NCBI GenBank assembly: GCA_001831055.1
Contig: MIDO01000106.1
Location: 1 to 13,321, forward strand
Direction: 5' to 3'
Source of the DNA: Verrucomicrobia bacterium GWC2_42_7
GTDB taxonomy: Bacteria; Verrucomicrobiota; Verrucomicrobiia; Opitutales; GWC2-42-7-A
DNA: 13,321 nucleotides
The notes below the pieces were generated by a model. That model was given only the letters and a program-made list of their open reading frames with translations. It was not told the DNA's origin and ran no database searches. Below, piece after piece: positions 4,188 to 11,935 of this stretch. The translations under genes were made by a program, and so were the position numbers. Numbering within the stretch: the first letter of the stretch is position 1; each line of letters begins with the position of its first letter.

Positions 4188-4292
4188 ACTGCCATCATGC
4201 TATATCTTTGTCTCTTCCAATGCAAGCGTTTTTTGAACGCGAACTTTGGATGAGCAGAAGTATGAAGAATACAGAGACTTCTAAAAACTTTA

Positions 4293-4328
4293 GGGAAACC
4301 TATTTGGGGAGCTCAAAATGGGTTTCCC
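4293..4328 (-). repeat. 36-bp palindromic repeat, copy A
   Basis: On the minus strand this copy reads GGGAAACCC, ATTTTGAGCT, CCCCAAATA, GGTTTCCC. The arms extend to a perfect 11-bp inverted repeat, TTAGGGAAACC at 4290-4300 against GGTTTCCCTAA at 4321-4331. A further T-G pair and four A-T pairs lie inside. A T7 run lies at 4339-4345 on the plus strand, but no plus-strand gene lies upstream to terminate. It aligns without gaps to copies D (25 of 36 identical) and B (26 of 36). It sits in the divergent space between the pilin operon and arnT. Confidence 0.7.
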
Positions 4329-4345
4329 TAACCCCCTCTTTTTTT

Positions 4346-4490
4346 GTTGCACTTCGAAATTGAATGGGCTGGCAAAGGAGCGCGAGCGAGGTGGATGAAA
4401 AACCCCTCCGCAGTTTGTCAGCGACTGGTGCCGACACCGTTTCCCGACGCTTGTCCCTTTTTCTCAAAATGGCCTTGCAAAGATGGGTGT
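4346..4490. other. GC-richer foldable block in divergent intergenic region (function unknown)
   Basis: This stretch between the pilin operon and arnT is visibly richer in G and C than its surroundings and contains nested dyads. One hairpin pairs GCGAGGTGG (4386-4394) with CCCCTCCGC (4403-4411), with a bulge and one mismatch. Another has GGTG/CACC (4427-4430 and 4435-4438) enclosed by AGCG/CGCT (4420-4423 and 4448-4451). A 90-codon minus-strand reading frame crosses it, but that frame has low-complexity composition, no ribosome site and no family I recognise. It could be a small structured RNA, part of a longer non-autonomous repeat that includes copy A, or leader/promoter DNA of arnT. Nothing here decides between them. 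Confidence 0.3.
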
Positions 4491-4516
4491 AATGATAGAT
4501 CTTATTGACCATTTGT

Positions 4517-6271
4517 ATGAAAGCTGTCGATACAGGTATGGAAGGTATGGGTTTGGGTGATGGAGAGAGCAAGTCTGAGGGTGCTCCAGAGGTTCGAAAA
4601 AATGTTATTTTTTTGGTGTTTAAGGACTTGATTTTGTTGGTATCGGTCCTGGGGTTGTTGTTTTTTTTGACGATAGGGAGGCGCCCATTGGCAAACCCTG
4701 ATGAGGGGCGATATGCGGAAATACCGCGAGAAATGGTGGTGTCAGGAGATTGGGTGACCCCGAGGTTGAATGGAGTTCTCTATTTTGAAAAGCCCCCATT
4801 GTTCTATTGGATGCAGGCTGCCGCGATAAAGGTAGGTGGATTGGGAGAGAGTACATTGAGGCTTTCTAATTCCTTATTGGGGCTGTTGGGGTGTCTTATT
4901 ACCTATGCATTTGGGGCGTATATATTTAATAGAAGAATTGGTTTGTATGCCGGATTCATTTTAGGAACATCCATGATGTTCTTCGTGCTGAGTCAAATTA
5001 TAACATTGGATATGGCAGTATCTGTATTTGTGACCATGGCACTTTTTGCTTTTATCGCTGGAGAAAAATCAAGAGGGCTTGGGAGAAGGCTGTTTTTTTG
5101 GCTATTTTATGCGAGCATGGCATTTGCGACCTTGTCCAAGGGGTTGATTGGGTTTTTGATTCCCTGTACTATTGTTTTCATGTGGACGGTCTTTTTGGGA
5201 AGATGGCGCGAAATTAAAAAATACTATCTTATTTCTGGGGGAGTGATATTTTTTGCGATAGCGACTCCTTGGCATATTTTGTGTGCGATGAAAAATCCTT
5301 CTTTTGCCTGGTATTACTTTATCAATGAACATTTTTTGCGCTATTTGACCCCAGGTCACGCACGTGTCAAGCCTTGGTGGTTCTTTATTATGACCTTTGC
5401 GGTTGGGAGTTTCCCTTGGCTTGTTTTCTTGCCACAAAGCATAGGTTATGCAATTAAGCGGGTAAAAAAGATTTCAGAAGAACGCAAAATATTTTTATTT
5501 TTGTCCTTATGGATTGTTTTTGTGATAGCGTTCTTTTCGATTTCGAAATCGAAATTGATCCCTTATATATTACCCACGATGCCTCCTTTTGCTCTAATAA
5601 TAGCCTGTTTTTTAGCAGAAGCTTCTCAGAATCTAAAAAAATATGAAACGCGTTTAAAGTGGGGCTATTATTCTTATGGCATTTTATTGGGAATATTGGC
5701 ATTGAGTTTTCCTGTTATTGCTTATTTTAAGTTCGAAATACTCTATGATTTGAGTGGGGTAGGGTACTGGTTATTATTGCCGCCGGTGACCTTTTTGTTG
5801 GCATCTATAATAATGATGACGACTATTCACAAGCGTCGATTGAGTGCTTGTTTTTCATTTACAATTTTGACGATGGTAGCCGTTTTCCTCGCGACAAACA
5901 CAATCGCAGGGCAATGTCAACGTCCGGGAACGAGGCAGGTAGCACAATCCTTAAAGCCCTATTTAAAGGCCGAAGATAAGGTGTTTATGCTTTTTGATTA
6001 TTATCAGGATTTCCCCGTATATCTGAGCCGTTTAGTCGGAGTCGCCTATAATATTCCTGGAGAACAAGCTTACGGTCTTCATCAAGAAGACCTATCTAAC
6101 AGATACCCTGACGAAAAGACTTTTGAAAGTCTTTGGATAAGTGAAACAAGGGTTTATGCGTTATCAAAAAAAGATCAATTTGAAGGATTCATAAATCGTC
6201 CTTTCGCTCCCAAAACCTATATCATTGACGAAGACGAAAATTTTGTCGTTTTCACTAACCACCCTATGTGA
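4517..6271 (+). CDS. arnT: ArnT-like lipid A 4-amino-4-deoxy-L-arabinose transferase (GT83)
   Basis: This polytopic inner-membrane glycosyltransferase has 584 residues from the first ATG; E. coli ArnT has about 550. Family members transfer L-Ara4N from undecaprenyl phosphate to lipid A phosphates on the periplasmic face, lowering charge and polymyxin binding. The first periplasmic loop carries PDEGRYAEIPREM (residues 61-73, acidic pair Asp62-Glu63) and GDWVTP...YFEKPPLFYW, both canonical for the ArnT/PMT fold. EHFLRYLTPGHARVKPWWFF-type sequence lies near 263-282. About a dozen hydrophobic segments follow, then a soluble C-terminal domain of about 120 residues. The start is uncertain: an upstream TTG at 4505 is in frame, as are ATGs at 4538 and 4547 and a TTG at 4553 preceded by GGAAGG. 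Neighbouring arnB and arnC support the assignment. A related GT83 enzyme acting on another acceptor remains possible. Confidence 0.8.
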   Translation: MKAVDTGMEGMGLGDGESKSEGAPEVRKNVIFLVFKDLILLVSVLGLLFFLTIGRRPLANPDEGRYAEIPREMVVSGDWVTPRLNGVLYFEKPPLFYWMQAAAIKVGGLGESTLRLSNSLLGLLGCLITYAFGAYIFNRRIGLYAGFILGTSMMFFVLSQIITLDMAVSVFVTMALFAFIAGEKSRGLGRRLFFWLFYASMAFATLSKGLIGFLIPCTIVFMWTVFLGRWREIKKYYLISGGVIFFAIATPWHILCAMKNPSFAWYYFINEHFLRYLTPGHARVKPWWFFIMTFAVGSFPWLVFLPQSIGYAIKRVKKISEERKIFLFLSLWIVFVIAFFSISKSKLIPYILPTMPPFALIIACFLAEASQNLKKYETRLKWGYYSYGILLGILALSFPVIAYFKFEILYDLSGVGYWLLLPPVTFLLASIIMMTTIHKRRLSACFSFTILTMVAVFLATNTIAGQCQRPGTRQVAQSLKPYLKAEDKVFMLFDYYQDFPVYLSRLVGVAYNIPGEQAYGLHQEDLSNRYPDEKTFESLWISETRVYALSKKDQFEGFINRPFAPKTYIIDEDENFVVFTNHPM

Positions 6272-6489
6272 TTTTTTTGAGGGAATACTTGTTAGAATAT
6301 CCATTTTTTTGGATTGTGTTTGTTGTTAATGTGCTTAATTGGATTTTGTTCCGTATAAGGATCCGGCATCTGTCCTTGCCTTTGGATGTCCCATCGACGG
6401 ACATAGGCTCTACTAGTGGTGCTCCTAGAATAGATAAAAAAGCTAAGAGTAAAGGAAAGTCTCCAGCACCCGAAATCTTAAATTTTTAA
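6268..6489 (+). CDS. Small single-helix membrane protein of unknown function
   Basis: This 73-residue frame starts with a GTG overlapping the arnT stop (ATGTGA). A TTG at 6289 preceded by GAGGG (6279-6283) is a better-looking start and gives 66 residues. It has one hydrophobic segment (about residues 13-28, FFWIVFVVNVLNWILF), then a basic patch RIRIRH and a hydrophilic, Ser/Lys/Pro-rich tail (KKAKSKGKSPAP). It sits where other arn clusters carry the small ArnE/ArnF flippase subunits. Those are about 110-130 residues with four helices, and this is not one of them. The position suggests a small accessory subunit of ArnT or of the lipid carrier step, but that is inference. A chance frame remains possible, although its overlap with arnT and its membrane-protein composition argue for a gene. 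Confidence 0.55.
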   Translation: MIFLREYLLEYPFFWIVFVVNVLNWILFRIRIRHLSLPLDVPSTDIGSTSGAPRIDKKAKSKGKSPAPEILNF

Positions 6490-6510
6490 AGTTTTCGCGT
6501 ATCGTTTTAT

Positions 6511-6546
6511 AGCAAACCACTTTTGAGTGACCAAAAGTGGTTTCCT
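6511..6546 (+). repeat. 36-bp palindromic repeat, copy D
   Basis: A perfect 12-bp inverted repeat, AAACCACTTTTG (6514-6525) and CAAAAGTGGTTT (6532-6543), surrounds a 6-base loop. No T-run follows on either strand, so it is not a canonical intrinsic terminator. It aligns without gaps to copy A on the opposite strand, sharing AAACC, TTTTGAG, AAA and GGTTTCC at the same spacing. It separates the arnT/small-protein pair from arnB. Read-through or processing could still make it a regulatory stem within one long transcript. Confidence 0.7.
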
Positions 6547-6638
6547 GCAAGCATCTTCTCTGAAAAAAATCTTGCACAGTCGTCATTTTTTAAGAATTTT
6601 ATAGCACACGCAGTAGATAGAAAGATTTGAGTATTACC

Positions 6639-7796
6639 ATGACAACAGACGAATATATTCCTTTTACAAAGCCGACAATTTCGAAAGAGGCCATACAAGA
6701 AGTAGTGGATTGTTTAGAATCTGGGTGGCTGGCCACAGGGCCGCGTACTCAAAAATTTGAGAACCTATTAGCGGAATATTTTGGAGTGCCATGTGTGCAA
6801 TCCTGCATATCGGCGACAGCGGGTTTGTTGATGGTGTTAGAATCTATTGATTTGCAGCCGGGGGACGAAGTCATTACGACTCCTATGACGTTTGCAGCAA
6901 CGGCCAATACGATTGTCCTAGCAGGGGGAACTCCTGTTATGGTGGATGTGGAGCCTGAGACGTATAATATAGATCCTAAATGTGTCGAAAAAGCTATTAC
7001 TAAGCGGACCAAAGCTATTATGCCTGTCCATTTTGCAGGGTTACCGGTTGATTTGGATGCGATCTATGGTCTGGCCTCAAAGCATGGATTGCGAGTGATT
7101 GAAGATGTGGCTCATGCCATGGGAGGAAGTTATAAGGGGAAAAAACTTGGGTCCTTTGGAGATACGCAAGTATTTAGTTTTCATCCCAACAAAAACATGA
7201 CGACGGGCGAGGGTGGGGCAATTGTTACAAGAGATGAAAAAATGAGGAAACACATCAACTATCTTCGTTTTCATGGCATTGATAGAGAGTCCTGGAATCG
7301 TTTTGCGAAGGGAGGAAGCCAGCTTTACGATATCGTGCTGCCGGGTTACAAATTTAACTTTATGGATATTCAAGCGGCTTTAGGTATCCATCAATTAGCG
7401 GCATTGGATGGTTTTAATGCAAAGCGAAAGGAATTGGCTGAGCGTTATTATTCATTATTGAAAGATTTTTCGGAGTTGTCTCTACCGGTACAACCTAGTT
7501 ATGACCATTTACATGCCTGGCACTTATTTACTCCTCTTATTAACGAAGAAAAAGCTGGCGTAACGCGAGATGAATTCATTGAAGAAATGAAGAAGCATAA
7601 CATTGGTATCGGATTACATTACCAAGCCATCCATTTACACTCTTATTACCGAAAAACTTATGGTTATAAAGAAGGAGACTTTCCCCATGCCGAATTCATT
7701 TCGGATAGAATCTTTAGCCTTCCTCTATTTCCGAAAATGACGCATAGTGATCAGGACCGTGTTGTCGGCGCTATGGCAAAAGTTTTTAGAAAATAA
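6639..7796 (+). CDS. arnB: ArnB-like UDP-4-amino-4-deoxy-L-arabinose aminotransferase (DegT/DnrJ/EryC1/StrS family)
   Basis: This cytosolic PLP enzyme has 385 residues, close to E. coli ArnB (about 380). ArnB aminates the UDP-4-ketopentose made by ArnA, with glutamate as donor, giving UDP-L-Ara4N. The PLP lysine is Lys185 in FSFHPNKN, and the cofactor-ring Asp is Asp156 in VIEDVAHA. Family motifs include SGWLATGP (28-35), SATAGL, GDEVITTPMTF, PVMVDVEPET, MPVHFAG, PGYKFNFMDIQAALG and HAWHLF. It looks closer to ArnB than to other sugar aminotransferases, notably in the GIGLHYQAIHLHSYYR region. I chose ATG 6639; a TTG at 6627 would add four residues. No strong Shine-Dalgarno is visible. It is followed four bases later by arnC, so the two are surely cotranscribed. 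Acting on a different UDP-4-keto-sugar is the main alternative. Confidence 0.88.
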   Translation: MTTDEYIPFTKPTISKEAIQEVVDCLESGWLATGPRTQKFENLLAEYFGVPCVQSCISATAGLLMVLESIDLQPGDEVITTPMTFAATANTIVLAGGTPVMVDVEPETYNIDPKCVEKAITKRTKAIMPVHFAGLPVDLDAIYGLASKHGLRVIEDVAHAMGGSYKGKKLGSFGDTQVFSFHPNKNMTTGEGGAIVTRDEKMRKHINYLRFHGIDRESWNRFAKGGSQLYDIVLPGYKFNFMDIQAALGIHQLAALDGFNAKRKELAERYYSLLKDFSELSLPVQPSYDHLHAWHLFTPLINEEKAGVTRDEFIEEMKKHNIGIGLHYQAIHLHSYYRKTYGYKEGDFPHAEFISDRIFSLPLFPKMTHSDQDRVVGAMAKVFRK

Positions 7797-7800
7797 CTCT

Positions 7801-8745
7801 ATGGGACACATTTACTTATCAATTGTTATTCCTGTATTTAACGAACAAGAAAATCTTGAGCGGTTGTTTACACGCTTGACGGCAGCGTTAGACGCGATGA
7901 AACAGCCGAGTGAGATTGTTTTTGTTAACGATGGAAGTTCTGACAATTCCTTCAAAATATTAAAAAACTTCCACGAGAGGCGCCCGCAGCAAGTCAGAAT
8001 TATCGATTTTAATGGCAATTACGGGCAACATACGGCCATTATTGCAGCCTTTGAACGGGTTCGGGGCAAAATCATCGTAACCCTCGACGCTGACCTTCAA
8101 AATCCGCCTGAGGAAATCCAAAAATTGGTTGCGAAGGTAGAAGAAGGTTACGATGTGGTCGGTGGTTTTCGTGCGCAACGCGAAGATTCTTGGTTTCGCC
8201 GCTATGCTTCAAAGCTAAACAATAAAATCCGTAAGTATACAACTAACATAGAGATGACAGATCAAGGTTGTATGCTCCGTGCATATGCGCGACATATCGT
8301 CGATGCTATTGTGCGTTGTGGGGAGCGTACTACGTTTATCCCTGCATTAGCCTACAAATTTGCAGCAAATCCTGGGGAAGTGGAAGTTGCTCATTCGGCC
8401 AGGTTGGGAGGTCAATCCAAGTATAGCTTATACAAACTTATCCGCCTGAATTTTGACTTAATAACAGGATTTACGCTTGTTCCGCTGCAGCTATTTACGA
8501 TTTTGGGCTTTATCGTTTCGGGCCTAAGTGCAATATTGGTCGTTGTACTAGTTGTACGCCGCATCCTTATTGGCCCGGAGGTACAAGGAATTTTTACGCT
8601 ATTTGCAGTATTATTTTTCTTAATAAGCGTTGCAATTACCGGTATTGGGCTTGTCGGTGAATACGTAGGCCGGACCTACCAAGCCGTTCAACAAAGACCC
8701 CGCTATATTCTCCGCCAAATCTTAGACAAAACTTCGGAGGAGTAG
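7801..8745 (+). CDS. arnC: ArnC-like undecaprenyl-phosphate 4-deoxy-4-formamido-L-arabinose transferase (GT2)
   Basis: This is a 314-residue GT2 family enzyme (E. coli ArnC about 322). ArnC transfers 4-formamido-L-arabinose from UDP to undecaprenyl phosphate on the cytoplasmic face; ArnD then deformylates the product. The GT-A domain opens with LSIVIPVFNEQENL (6-19) and has NDGSSDNS (43-50), NYGQHTAI and LDADLQNPPEEI (the Asp96-x-Asp98 metal motif), then EGYDVVGG and DSWFRRYASK. It continues with QGCMLRAYARHIVDAI and GGQSKYSLYKL, all matching ArnC block by block. Two transmembrane helices (about 231-254 and 264-286) and the GLVGEYVGRTYQ signature close the protein. The frame can be opened upstream inside arnB, but ATG 7801 matches the family N-terminus. 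DPM-like transferases share the fold; the WFRRYASK and QGCMLRAY blocks favour ArnC. Confidence 0.9.
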   Translation: MGHIYLSIVIPVFNEQENLERLFTRLTAALDAMKQPSEIVFVNDGSSDNSFKILKNFHERRPQQVRIIDFNGNYGQHTAIIAAFERVRGKIIVTLDADLQNPPEEIQKLVAKVEEGYDVVGGFRAQREDSWFRRYASKLNNKIRKYTTNIEMTDQGCMLRAYARHIVDAIVRCGERTTFIPALAYKFAANPGEVEVAHSARLGGQSKYSLYKLIRLNFDLITGFTLVPLQLFTILGFIVSGLSAILVVVLVVRRILIGPEVQGIFTLFAVLFFLISVAITGIGLVGEYVGRTYQAVQQRPRYILRQILDKTSEE

Positions 8746-8751
8746 GGGCTA

Positions 8752-8787
8752 GGGGAACCGCTTTGGGTAGCCCAGAAAAGCTTCCCC
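8752..8787 (-). repeat. 36-bp palindromic repeat, copy B
   Basis: It lies seven bases after the arnC stop. The outer arms GGGGAA (8752-8757) and TTCCCC (8782-8787) pair. Inside, GCTTT (8760-8764) pairs with AAAGC (8777-8781), and GGG with CCC around a TAG loop, with small bulges. On the minus strand it matches copy A at 26 of 36 positions without gaps. No T-run follows on the plus strand, so if it ends arnC transcription it does so atypically. Confidence 0.65.
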
Positions 8788-9062
8788 AACAGAAAAACGT
8801 GATATAGTATATTAAAAAATAGAAGTGGCAAAGAGCGAAAAAATTCCTTTTCGTAAAAAGAAAGCTTTTCGCGCTTTCCAAAGGAAAGCGGATATCGCCA
8901 AAGAAAATTTTTTAATTTTTCTTTATCAAAAGAGATAGGACTGTAACGAAATTAATGACTTATGCTATATCATGTAGCTAATCAAAATGTTGTTAGGATC
9001 TAAAACCTCTCTTCAGTTTATTCCAGGTTCGCGTCATACTTAATACACTTTAGAAGGAGGTA
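8788..9062. other. Intergenic DNA between convergent units, with dyads and no gene
   Basis: No coding frame is supported on either strand here. Two inverted repeats stand out: CGCTTTCC / GGAAAGCG with an AAA loop (8872-8890, perfect 8-bp stem), and AAAGAAAA / TTTTCTTT (8900-8907 and 8917-8924). On the minus strand the first stem is followed after several bases by a T-rich TTTCTTTTT, so it could be a weak terminator for the minus-strand acyltransferase operon. The rest is AT-rich, with no recognised motif. Confidence 0.35.
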
Positions 9063-9191
9063 TTGAAAATAGAGAATAGAACGCAAGAAAGGGTTTTAGG
9101 AAGCGTTTTACCTTCATTTTTTAATGTGTTAAGTCTATCATTAAAAATGATGCTTTCATTCAAAATATTATCGAATGACTTCATTGTTTAG
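9054..9191 (+). other. Orphan consensus Shine-Dalgarno with a 42-codon frame
   Basis: AAGGAGGT at 9054-9061 is the best ribosome-binding match I noticed in the window, yet no recognised gene follows. A frame from TTG 9063 runs 42 codons to TAG 9189-9191 and overlaps the 3' end of the acyltransferase-partner gene on the other strand. The spacing from AGGAGG to TTG is only two bases, too short for normal initiation, and no other start codon lies at the usual distance. It may be a gene remnant, a small peptide gene using another start, or coincidence. Confidence 0.2.
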
Positions 9192-10085
9192 AAAAGCAAT
9201 TCCTGTTTCAGACCGGAAATGGCAAGGGTCTATACGAAAGAAATATTCTCTTTTTCCGTAAGCTGATTCTGATAAGTCAACGATGTCAGGAAATATTTGT
9301 TTTACTGCTACCTTCCATTTTTGCCATTCTTGATAGCCATCAGATTTTTTTACTATTGCCATGATAGGTTCGCAAACGGGTTCTATGTAGGTAATTAATT
9401 TGATATGTCTTGATTCTAGCAAATTTTTGATTTTTTTTAAGTAATTCAATGAATTCTCGTGGAATTTGTAATGACTCCATTCTGTCGCAATTTGGTTCAC
9501 TTTCTCGTTAAAGATAGTTACGTTTTCTGTATCAAAGTGTTGCATCCATCCAACTTGGTTCCCTGAGCCGTCTATAGCTACGCTTCTTGGGGCTTTTTTT
9601 AAGTATTTAGCTAGGGTTTTTACACAAAACTCGATATTTTTTATGTTAAAAAGGTATAAGGAAATTTGTTTCCATTTTTTTTCATTAAAAAAGTCTTTTG
9701 ATGGATTTTGAGGATCCATTTCTCCAATGGAAATTCCGATGATGACAACGTTTTCATTTGAAAGGTGTTTTTTTAGGAAATGATAAATTTCACTGTGTTT
9801 TTCTCCTCCGCAAGCTGCATTGAAAAAACGGTGCTGCTTTAATTGGGAGACATTGATCATTGCTGACCTGCTATTTCCTATTAATAGGGCATTGTGTGAA
9901 TATTTATATATTTGCTGTGCTTTGTATTCTCTTTCGCATGAAATGTAGACTCCGAGTTTATTTACTCCGAAGAAGTTATAGGGGTCGATATAGTAGCTCA
10001 CCAATCCAATTACGAGTAGGATTGCCAAGGAGAATCCTAATGTCCTGTAGACATATTTTTTTAAAATATAAGGGGCTGAATCCAT
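9168..10085 (-). CDS. SGNH-type periplasmic partner of an MBOAT O-acyltransferase (AlgJ/AlgX/DltD-like role)
   Basis: This 305-residue protein has one N-terminal membrane anchor (about 14-33) and a periplasmic domain. GNSRSA at 70-75 matches the block I nucleophile region (Ser72). DPCHF at 286-290 supplies a D-x-x-H pair (Asp286, His289) near the C-terminus, where this fold keeps its catalytic Asp and His. FFNAACGG (88-94) and VVIIGISIGEMD (113-124) fit the intervening strands. Such proteins work with membrane-bound MBOAT proteins to move acetyl groups onto exported polysaccharides. The gene starts seven bases after the MBOAT stop; I chose ATG 10085 over TTG 10091. It appears intact although its partner is broken. 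Membership of a specific named family is not established; overall similarity to DltD or AlgX is not obvious. Confidence 0.65.
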   Translation of the reverse strand: MDSAPYILKKYVYRTLGFSLAILLVIGLVSYYIDPYNFFGVNKLGVYISCEREYKAQQIYKYSHNALLIGNSRSAMINVSQLKQHRFFNAACGGEKHSEIYHFLKKHLSNENVVIIGISIGEMDPQNPSKDFFNEKKWKQISLYLFNIKNIEFCVKTLAKYLKKAPRSVAIDGSGNQVGWMQHFDTENVTIFNEKVNQIATEWSHYKFHENSLNYLKKIKNLLESRHIKLITYIEPVCEPIMAIVKKSDGYQEWQKWKVAVKQIFPDIVDLSESAYGKREYFFRIDPCHFRSETGIAFLNNEVIR

Positions 10086-10092
10086 GGGCAAA

Positions 10093-11548
10093 TTAGAACT
10101 GATAATATAAAAACTCGCTGACGTTGGAGAGGGAGAGGACGCCCGTAACGAGCAACAAAGATGTTATTAACACCCAGCGCATTTTGGGAGTCCAATTGAT
10201 AGAGTTTTTTTCATAATCGTCATTTAGAATAAGCCTATAATTTTTAAATAGTTGCTGTGTGTTTGGGAAAACCCACACAAAAAATAAAAGTCCTCCTACG
10301 ATCGCCCATTTTTCAGGTTTAACCAAGGTTGTTGCGTTTGTTGCAGGAAATCCGAATCCCACCATCGCTGATAACATTTTACTTGCTGAATCTAAATCAG
10401 CTGCCCTAAATAAAACCCAACCAAAAACAACCAGCAAGAATGTAATTGTTTTTGATAGGGGAACGGTAACCTTATTTTTAAGAATATCATAACCTGTTAA
10501 AGCATGATTGAGGGCTAATAAAATTCCATGATAGGTTCCCCATAATACAAATGTCCATCCAGCCCCATGCCAGATGCCGCCAATAAGCATAGTCAGCAAC
10601 AAGTTGATATATCTTCGGCTTTTCCCTTTTCTATTCCCGCCAAGAGAAATATAGATGTAATCCCTCAAGAACCTTGATAAGGTCATATGCCACCTCCTCC
10701 AAAACTCGATAATGTTTAGGGAATTGTATGGCGAATTAAAGTTGGCAGGTAGCCTAATTCCGAACAATCTTCCTAATCCGATTGCCATGTCCGAATATCC
10801 CGAAAAATCAAAGTAGATTTGAAATGAATAAGTTAACGCTCCTAGCCAAGCATCACTGGCATGGATTTCTTTAGATGAAGAAAGGGCATCAAATACGGTC
10901 TTTACCGTTGGAGAAAGTTGGTCTGCAATAATCGTTTTTTTAAAAAGTCCGATTGCAAAGACTGTAATTCCAATAGCTAAATTTTCTCAATTAAATCGAA
11001 AAGTATCTAGCTTCCTAAATTGAGGGACAACATCATGATGATGTACGATTGGGCCTGCAATCAGTTGAGGGAAAAAATACGATAAAAAGCATATAATCCA
11101 ACAATCTATAGCACTTTGTTTCTCTCTTAAAAGAGTCGCAGAGGTATGCTATTTTTTGAAAGGTGAAAAACGAGATACCCAATGGTAAAATAATGCTTCC
11201 AATATTCCAGTTTGTTTCAAAAACAGTATTTATGTTATTAATGATGAAAAAGGTATATTTAAAATAGCAAAGCAATAGAACATTTGCAGTGATGCCGATT
11301 CCCAAAAGTAATTTTCGTGCAGGTAAAGGGAACGACTTTGCCCCTAATAGATTACCGATACCATAATTCGCAAACATGGACGCAAGGAGTAATCCTAAGT
11401 ACAATGGGTTCCACCAAGCATAATAAAATAGTGATGCAAATACGAGCCAGCTCTTTGCTAGAACAACTCTTTTGCTTCCAAATAAAAAATATACGATTAA
11501 AGCCAGAGGCAAGAATAGGAAAATAAAGGTGTATGAGTTGAAAAGCAT
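10093..11548 (-). pseudogene. MBOAT O-acyltransferase (AlgI/DltB/PatA type), disrupted by frameshift and nonsense codon
   Basis: The restored frame would encode about 484 residues, normal for this polytopic inner-membrane family, which passes acyl groups across the membrane for polysaccharide O-acylation. The N-terminal half (11548 to about 11078) reads normally from MLFNSYTFIFLFLPLALIVY through LPLGISFFTFQKIAYLCDS. At an A6 run on the plus strand (11072-11077) one extra base shifts frame, and the reading then ends at 11033. The correct continuation, FFPQLIAGPIVHHHDVVPQF, is in the neighbouring frame until TGA 10987-10989, where the family normally has Trp in an FxWxNLAIG context. After it, GLFKKTIIAD, QIYFDFSGYSDMAIG, EFWRRWH and GGIWHGAGW (the conserved His pair) follow intact to TAA 10093. 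TGA serves as a normal stop elsewhere in the window, so recoding is unlikely. A sequencing error could explain the homopolymer lesion but not easily both lesions. Confidence 0.85.
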
Positions 11549-11838
11549 TTATTTTAAAGTTCAAAAAAAACCAATAAGCCCTGTCTTTGTCAATGTTTTC
11601 TATAAATAATTAAATCTCTAGGTAATACCTGAATCCTTTTCCTTTCTCCAGAACAGAAACCTGGACACCTCTTCAAGTGCTGAAGGCGTTACCTTTTCTA
11701 TAATGGGGAATTATAATAAGAATATTTTTGGGTAGTGCTCTAAGGGGGATGTTTTTTATATTTTTATAAAAATTTTCTTTTTTGCTCGAAGTATGAATTT
11801 TCAAATCCATATCTCACGTAACAATTCCTTTTTCGGAA
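11549..11838. other. AT-rich intergenic DNA upstream of the MBOAT gene, no gene seen
   Basis: No coding frame is supported. A TTGACA lies on the minus strand at 11593-11588, pointing to the MBOAT gene, but I find no convincing -10 at 16-18 bases. On the plus strand there are two TATAAT hexamers, at about 11699-11704 and at 11712-11717. The second has TTACCT 17 bases upstream (11689-11694). They could start a small RNA or an early nrdJ transcript. The evidence is only hexamer matches in AT-rich DNA. Confidence 0.3.
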
Positions 11839-11867
11839 GGGGCTTTGGGGGCCAAAATGGGTTCCCC
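11839..11867 (-). repeat. Palindromic repeat, copy C (right arm truncated)
   Basis: On the minus strand it reads GGGGAACCCATTTTGG, CCCCCAAAGC, CCC. This matches copy A in all but one of the first 15 positions; there is then a two-base deletion, and the second GGTTCCCC arm is lost. The stem TTTGGGG (11844-11850) / CCCCAAA (11864-11870) is retained, with AAGGG (11837-11841) and CCCTT (11874-11878) pairing outside it. No T-run follows. It lies about 70 bp upstream of the NrdR boxes. Confidence 0.6.
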
Positions 11868-11935
11868 AAAATACCCTTTGTAAAAAAATAAAATAAAATA
11901 AAATTGCGCTGGTTTTAAAAATAATTTTTCTTTAT

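Follow-up and report, generated by a model that had tools for sequence, protein, structure and literature searches.

The question raised by this locus is what kind of repeat recurs between its genes, how it may have multiplied, and whether it acts on the genes beside it. The window (the whole stretch of 13,321 nt that was analysed) belongs to an assembly, here called G000, of 1.30 Mb in 133 contigs and 64% completeness. A preliminary description of the window had proposed a four-copy family (copies A to D) of a palindromic repeat of approximately 36 bp. This palindrome is real, but it is only half of the repeat: it is the second hairpin (hp2) of a unit of approximately 105 bp in which a first hairpin (hp1) is followed by a linker of approximately 22 nt and then by hp2. 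We consider it probable (roughly 0.7) that this unit is a non-autonomous mobile palindromic element of the REP/BIME/MITE grade. The following features were recognized in the window.

4293-4328, plus strand (strand uncertain): copy A, an hp2 palindrome with a stem reaching 4290-4331
4339-4345, plus strand: T-run behind copy A, TTTTTTT preceded by CCCCCTC in the sequence
6511-6546, plus strand: copy D, an hp2 palindrome without a T-run
8752-8787, plus strand: copy B, an hp2-like palindrome with weak family membership
8831-8934, minus strand: a further double-hairpin element, type II/III-like, absent from the preliminary description
About 8835-8872, 8873-8894, and 8895-8927, minus strand: hp2, linker, and hp1, respectively, of the element at 8831-8934
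11779-11873, plus strand: copy C, a decayed full type I element with an hp1 remnant, a linker, and a shortened hp2 (11839-11867)
11825-11842, plus strand: linker core of copy C, TTCCTTTTTCGGAAGGGG, from the sequence and its alignment to model R2

The sequences and folds of copies A, D, and B agreed with the earlier account. Ungapped identity to copy A was 26/36 for B, as had been reported, and 24/36 on recount for D, where 25/36 had been claimed. Membership was assessed with R2, a model of the full type I element that has no window sequence among its sources. Copy A scored 37.0 bits (E of 1e-9) on the plus strand and 23.9 bits on the minus strand, copy D scored 29.1 bits (E of 2e-7), and the full element at copy C scored 38.7 bits (E of 4e-10), whereas copy B reached only 9.8 bits (E of 0.08). 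By this measure the proposed family holds for A, C, and D, the membership of B is weak, and the copy at 8831-8934 had been overlooked (R2, 29.8 bits and E of 1e-7; R3, a model of the linker and hp2 drawn from G000 and the relatives G012 and G022, 28.4 bits and E of 1e-6). A 36-nt model, R1, was built from 11 source copies that included A, B, and D, so that the high R1 scores of these three are not independent; copy C as a 29-mer alone matched R1 weakly (12.1 bits, E of 0.09). No clear hp1 or linker was found in the sequence around 4293-4328. Copy D lies 21 nt past the stop of a 73-amino-acid open reading frame (ORF; 6268-6489), copy B lies 6 nt past the stop of a glycosyltransferase ORF that ends at 8745, and copies A and C lie in divergent spaces. 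Copy A is followed by CCCCCTCTTTTTTT, and with the T-run at 4339-4345 copy A alone could serve as a plus-strand terminator; the lack of a T-run at the other three copies was confirmed.

The suggestion of a genome-wide REP- or MITE-like element was borne out by searches of the source assembly. The arm pattern GGGAAACC-N8-30-GGTTTCCC, taken from copy A, occurs at 18 places in the 1.30 Mb and its reversed form at none, which is beyond chance, and a looser core pattern occurs at 29 places in G000 and at none in 34 relatives of the same order. Searched genome-wide on both strands, R1 gave at least 150 match rows in G000. A sample of 40 contigs or contig parts (441 kb) was then combined with the window to give 41 stretches of 454,495 bases. 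The first 20 contigs had been picked for matches; the second 20 were mostly every sixth contig number, with four contigs of this series omitted as already present in the first set and the off-series contigs C124 and C130, with known matches, added. A plain hairpin scan of these 454 kb returned 312 near-perfect inverted repeats versus 0 in one Markov-1 control, and a looser scan (score of at least 14) returned 306 versus 3. We listed 175 elements in the 454 kb, of which 115 were type I and 60 were other; type I was called by the linker and a folding hp2, and 98 of the 115 also had a folding hp1. The second set held 46 elements in 172.7 kb, or 20 in 124.9 kb when its last four stretches are left out, and a rough extrapolation gives approximately 200 to 350 elements for the whole assembly. 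Runs of N are present in 30 of the 41 stretches, at least some of them within intergenic repeat DNA, and copies may therefore be undercounted. Of the 312 hairpins, 265 are intergenic, 9 lie across an ORF end, and 38 lie inside crude ORFs, some of which are overlong ORF calls; the repeat is mostly intergenic but is not restricted to transcription unit borders. A second dispersed repeat of G000, approximately 140 bp long (TTTTAAGTTTCGAGTGTGTTGG...CACGTACGTATGTACGCTCCCT...CTGCTCGAAA), gave 55 pattern matches in the 41 stretches, a count from two patterns in which some copies are counted doubly; examples lie in L040 near 8968, in L041 near 667 and 8366, in L043 (minus strand), and in L050 near 2020.

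The paired layout emerged from the spacing of neighboring hairpins. Among 85 pairs less than 60 nt apart, 72 are spaced at 20 to 26 nt (26 of them at exactly 22 nt), and the repeat is therefore hp1-linker-hp2. At least three subtypes in G000 have this one layout in common. In type I, an hp1 such as TTGCGCGGATATAAATTCC-loop precedes the linker core CTCCTTTTCGGAAGGGG and an hp2 of the form TTGGGGAAACCCATTTTGG-GNGA-. The two hairpins differ in sequence and are not inverted copies of one another, and conservation drops near both edges of the element, save for an A-rich stretch ahead of hp1. One mosaic was seen at L042 2996-3169, where a single hp1 is common to two outward-facing elements, type I on one side and type II on the other.

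Base pairing within the stems is conserved across sequence change. Twenty-four type I copies were aligned with MAFFT (alignment A3); the alignment was not structure fitted, and no copy from the window was included. Of its 42 stem pairs, 22 show two-sided changes, as expected from the compensatory changes that the preliminary description had proposed as a check. In the same alignment 96.7% of cells are paired, a percentage biased in favor of the consensus structure since that structure was derived from A3 itself; none of 500 shuffles paired as highly, and slid partners paired at 38 to 65%. Mean identity is 91% in the linker, 83% in the hp2 stems, and 66% in the hp1 stems. GNRA/GNA-like loops are confined largely to one strand, with 72 forward and 0 reverse among 98 hp2 loops and 37 forward and 5 reverse among 98 hp1 loops. 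The pairing may have been kept either by selection or by template switching between the arms. The linker paired with DNA upstream of hp1 in 8 of 51 cases, versus 5 and 6 in controls, and a search of six sources (86.6 kb) against Rfam 15 above the gathering score returned two tRNAs and one SRP RNA only, with no match to the element.

Divergent versions with the same layout are present in three other family-level groups of the order, represented by G012, G022, and the family f20. No genus- or family-level relative of G000 was found. Scans of more than 40 genomes scored 12 to 13 candidates per genome under stricter filters, so that their counts are lower bounds and their absences are soft. Among 273 genomes of the order, R2 matched G000, G012, and G022, with a single weak match in G122. 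With R3 at an E of 1e-4 or below, 10 of 372 order genomes matched (G000, G012, G022, five members of f20, and weak lone matches in G175 and G633), and among 384 genomes of the class there were 4 that matched (G000, G019, G053, and G428, the last by a lone match). The lone matches in G122, G428, G175, and G633 lacked the two-hairpin layout and were not counted as carriers. The f20 carriers are G019, G053, G116, G128, and G137; with up to 150 candidates scored and an E of 0.01 or below, G053 has 31 places, G137 has 5 (8 match rows, three of them second-strand), G128 has 4, G019 has 2, and G116 has 1, the weaker of these places being candidate elements. While hp2 is a long stem, hp1 is a long stem in G000 and G012 and a mini-hairpin of 6 to 7 bp in G022 and f20. 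The linker core in relatives is AAAGTTTTTTGGGAAGAGC or ...GGGAAAGGGGG; read by eye, the element is GGATGCGCAGCATCC plus GTCATAAAAGTTTTTTGGGAAAGGGGGC plus hp2 in G022, GGAACGAAGTTCC plus GTCTCAAAAGTTTTTTGGGGAGAGC plus hp2 in G053, and GGCGC..GCGCC plus AAAGTTTTTTGGGAAGAGC plus hp2 in G019, G137, and G116. R2 had no match in 19 control stretches from relatives, of which three were masked (G+C of 0) and one came from the carrier G019. A distant blastn search of plasmids and phages with one type I element and a search of viral contigs with one exact type I pattern also returned no match. Six core-pattern matches in two Bacteroidota and four Clostridia records (R2, 20.6 to 32.9 bits) were taken as chance palindromes. 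The intergenic DNA of f20 holds another large palindrome, for example CAGTGATTACCCAAACCAGC-GAC-GCTGGTTTGGGTAATCACTG adjoining CGATGCGCAGCATCG (L197 of G019; L204 and L207 of G137).

The element is placed with a polarity behind genes. Using crude ORF calls in the 41 stretches of G000, we examined 266 gene 3' ends followed by at least 60 nt of space, of which 107 have an element and 159 have none listed. When the element nearest to a stop codon lies no farther than 45 nt from it, hp2 comes first in 53 cases and hp1 in 11 (P of 1e-7); each sampling half gives the same picture (38/9 and 15/2). If every first-in-line element is counted, the median distance from the stop is 16 nt for hp2 first (n = 62) and 135 nt for hp1 first (n = 45). 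Among spaces of at least 150 nt, an element is present in 12 of the 44 that are divergent, 64 of the 138 that are tandem, and 14 of the 33 that are convergent. Orientation relative to tandem genes is even overall (44 same, 49 opposite) because many copies are found toward the distant end of the space, facing in the opposite direction. In f20, 24 of 28 elements recognized by sequence pattern are intergenic; in 20 of these 24, hp2 is directed at a gene 3' end (median, 19 nt), and in 15 hp1 is (median, 66 nt), counts in which 13 copies in convergent spaces were scored on both sides. hp2 faces a 3' end in 5 of 8 intergenic copies in G012 and in 6 of 8 in G022. The copies in the window obey this rule only in part. 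Orientation showed no relation to GC skew (43 copies with it, 40 against) or to the gene strand of the contig (34 with, 42 against). Distances to start codons were excluded, as hp2 contains an ATG that pulls ORF starts.

Hairpins lying close past stop codons, and copy A with its T-run, could be read as independent intrinsic terminators that merely look alike. We give this reading almost no credence: the copies have a linker in common and a paired layout, and by a simple test only 1 of 53 stop-proximal copies combines a hairpin with a T-run. The common linker and the second hairpin contradict ordinary terminators, which we reject. Behind alaS, G019 and G137 have a T-run terminator (arms GTAGTT..AACTAC) close past the stop codon, which was identified by eye and was not seen in G128. 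In G053 a terminator of the same kind lies farther on, and the element sits between it and the stop codon (also by eye). The G053 element there is therefore an addition to the 3' untranslated region (UTR) and not the terminator. The terminator role proposed for the repeat is not supported.

Gene ends of relatives were compared with those of G053. Six G053 elements adjoin eight genes, whose counterparts in G019, G137, G128, and G116 were identified from their C termini; at the 21 matching 3' ends (20 regions) R3 found no element. Loss in the four relatives, instead of gain in G053, could formally also account for this pattern. G128 and G137, which belong to two genera, have an element in common at one homologous place, with DNA alignable for 1.2 kb up to the element, and some copies are thus old or useful. 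No target duplication was seen at any tested offset for 51 G000 elements.

If the element is mobile, as we favor, new copies would be made by an enzyme acting in trans, which may recognize the linker sequence together with the folded hairpins of one strand. Most copies would be inserted, or would persist, in the stretch that runs from a stop codon to the end of the transcript, where little harm is done. One candidate is the Y1 transposase (RAYT) that moves REPs and REPINs, and the preliminary description had anticipated such a partner. No match to PF01797 was found in G000 (64% complete), G012 (91%), G022 (97%), G019 (98%), or G053 (97%). Y1 is present in the carriers G137, G116, and G128, where it was not seen beside the elements placed there, and in G003, G018, and G020, three genomes in which elements were not found. 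It is also missing from G122 and from the element-free G006, and its absence is for that reason not peculiar to carriers. It might be argued that this is a true REP/REPIN family whose RAYT was lost or is missing from an incomplete assembly: the repeat is of the same grade (intergenic, palindromic, many copied, with paired hairpins), G000 is only 64% complete, three f20 carriers have Y1 genes, and the published CGTC-tagged REPs are likewise reported to lack a dedicated transposase (PMC3733652). However, Y1 was not found in G012, G022, or G019, nor in G053, the richest f20 carrier; GTAG shows no enrichment (found in 9 of 98 element windows versus 0.21 at random); and neither hairpin is an inverted copy of its partner. 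Membership in the RAYT-REP system fails because no Y1 was found in five carriers, and we regard a lost or missing RAYT as very improbable.

Copying by a reverse transcriptase, with RNA as the intermediate, would be consistent with the GNRA-like loops on one strand and with the lack of a target duplication. PF00078, however, had no match in the carriers G000, G012, G022, and G019, nor in G003, G018, and G020, and of the five carriers searched only G053 had it (two match rows); this route seems highly improbable. As far as these two profiles see in most carriers, then, the mobilizer is neither Y1 nor a reverse transcriptase.

A different explanation is that the element is a functional 3'-UTR RNA module, in which hp2 just behind the stop either shields the 3' end of the mRNA or adjusts translation through the stalling of ribosomes at termination. 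On this view selection retains the copies, however they arose. The median distances behind stops (16 nt for hp2 first in G000, 19 nt in f20), the strand-specific conservation of hp2 loops (72 versus 0 of 98), and the place common to G128 and G137 agree with this explanation, and ribosomes reportedly stall at REPs of E. coli that lie no more than 15 nt from a stop codon (PMC12306157, citing Liang 2015), a source in which REPs close behind stop codons are treated as known in that species. Against it, four f20 genomes have just 1 to 5 places, and a general role there is thus not expected; the matching genes of relatives manage without the element; 159 of the 266 spaced 3' ends in G000 have none listed; and many copies are in the other orientation. 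We consider a module of this kind rather unlikely as the explanation of the repeat, while an extra 3'-UTR effect of a mobile element is possible.

The element resembles REPs, BIMEs, and REPINs in being short, palindromic, and intergenic, in hundreds of copies with two hairpins per unit, and in the general working sense of REP (high-copy, mostly intergenic palindromes) it belongs with them; compensatory stem changes have been described for REPINs too (PMC3116915). It differs from GTAG-tagged, RAYT-driven (TnpA-REP) families in its tag: among 98 type I windows (134 nt, G000 only), GTAG occurs in 9 and CTAC in 11, versus 0.21 each at random. It also differs in that no Y1 gene was found in five carriers. 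A REPIN consists of two inverted copies of one REP around a spacer, with conserved ends and a variable spacer, whereas here hp1 and hp2 are unrelated and a conserved linker joins variable hairpins. The element behaves like a mobile palindrome of REP or MITE grade, but the tag, the transposase, and the design that were tested as hallmarks of RAYT-driven REPs and REPINs were not found.

CGTC-tagged REPs are like it in forming palindromic families without a dedicated transposase (PMC3733652), and the mini-hp1 of G022 and G053 is followed by GTC after its final C. Their stems, however, are 8 to 9 bp, CGTC is not enriched in G000 elements (8 of 98; 0.27 at random), and it does not adjoin hp1 in the G019, G137, and G116 elements that were read. 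How palindromic repeats spread without a dedicated transposase is described as an open question in the same source. The likeness to MITEs lies in small size, lack of coding capacity, dispersal, and presence/absence between relatives, and a short terminal inverted repeat occurs by eye in some G053 copies only; G000 copies differ in showing neither a terminal inverted repeat nor a target duplication, and no parent insertion sequence is known. The G053 copies concerned (L149-L187) end in TACCG.TTC / GAA.CGGTA, outside both hairpins.

Mitochondrial double-hairpin elements, in which two hairpins form one dispersed unit in organelle genomes, are alike in layout. A literature search by titles and abstract openings found no published description of the present double-hairpin element. 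Tentatively, and at odds somewhat short of even, we propose that it represents a new superfamily with a design inverse to that of REPINs, in which the linker serves as the sequence signal and the two hairpins, unrelated to each other, are preserved chiefly for their fold. The mobilizing enzyme would be of a class other than Y1 or reverse transcriptase, and the element would enter gene 3' ends with hp2 towards the stop, between stop codon and terminator. Carriers in which no Y1 gene was found, such as G053 (97% complete) and G019 (98%), make the mobilizer searchable by a comparison of carriers with noncarriers. The conserved linker, the hairpins kept as structure, and the polar placement also allow experiments on what a pair of hairpins does when it follows a stop codon.

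Among the genes of the window, ArnT-, ArnB-, and ArnC-like ORFs (arabinose-lipid A) occupy 4505-8745, all of them under the curated model cutoffs. A DltB-like ORF at 10093-10788 scored 110.9 bits over model positions 238 to 376, under the cutoff of 375. It lies behind a separate same-strand ORF at 11033-11548, and the gene across 10093-11548 may be broken or hold an error.
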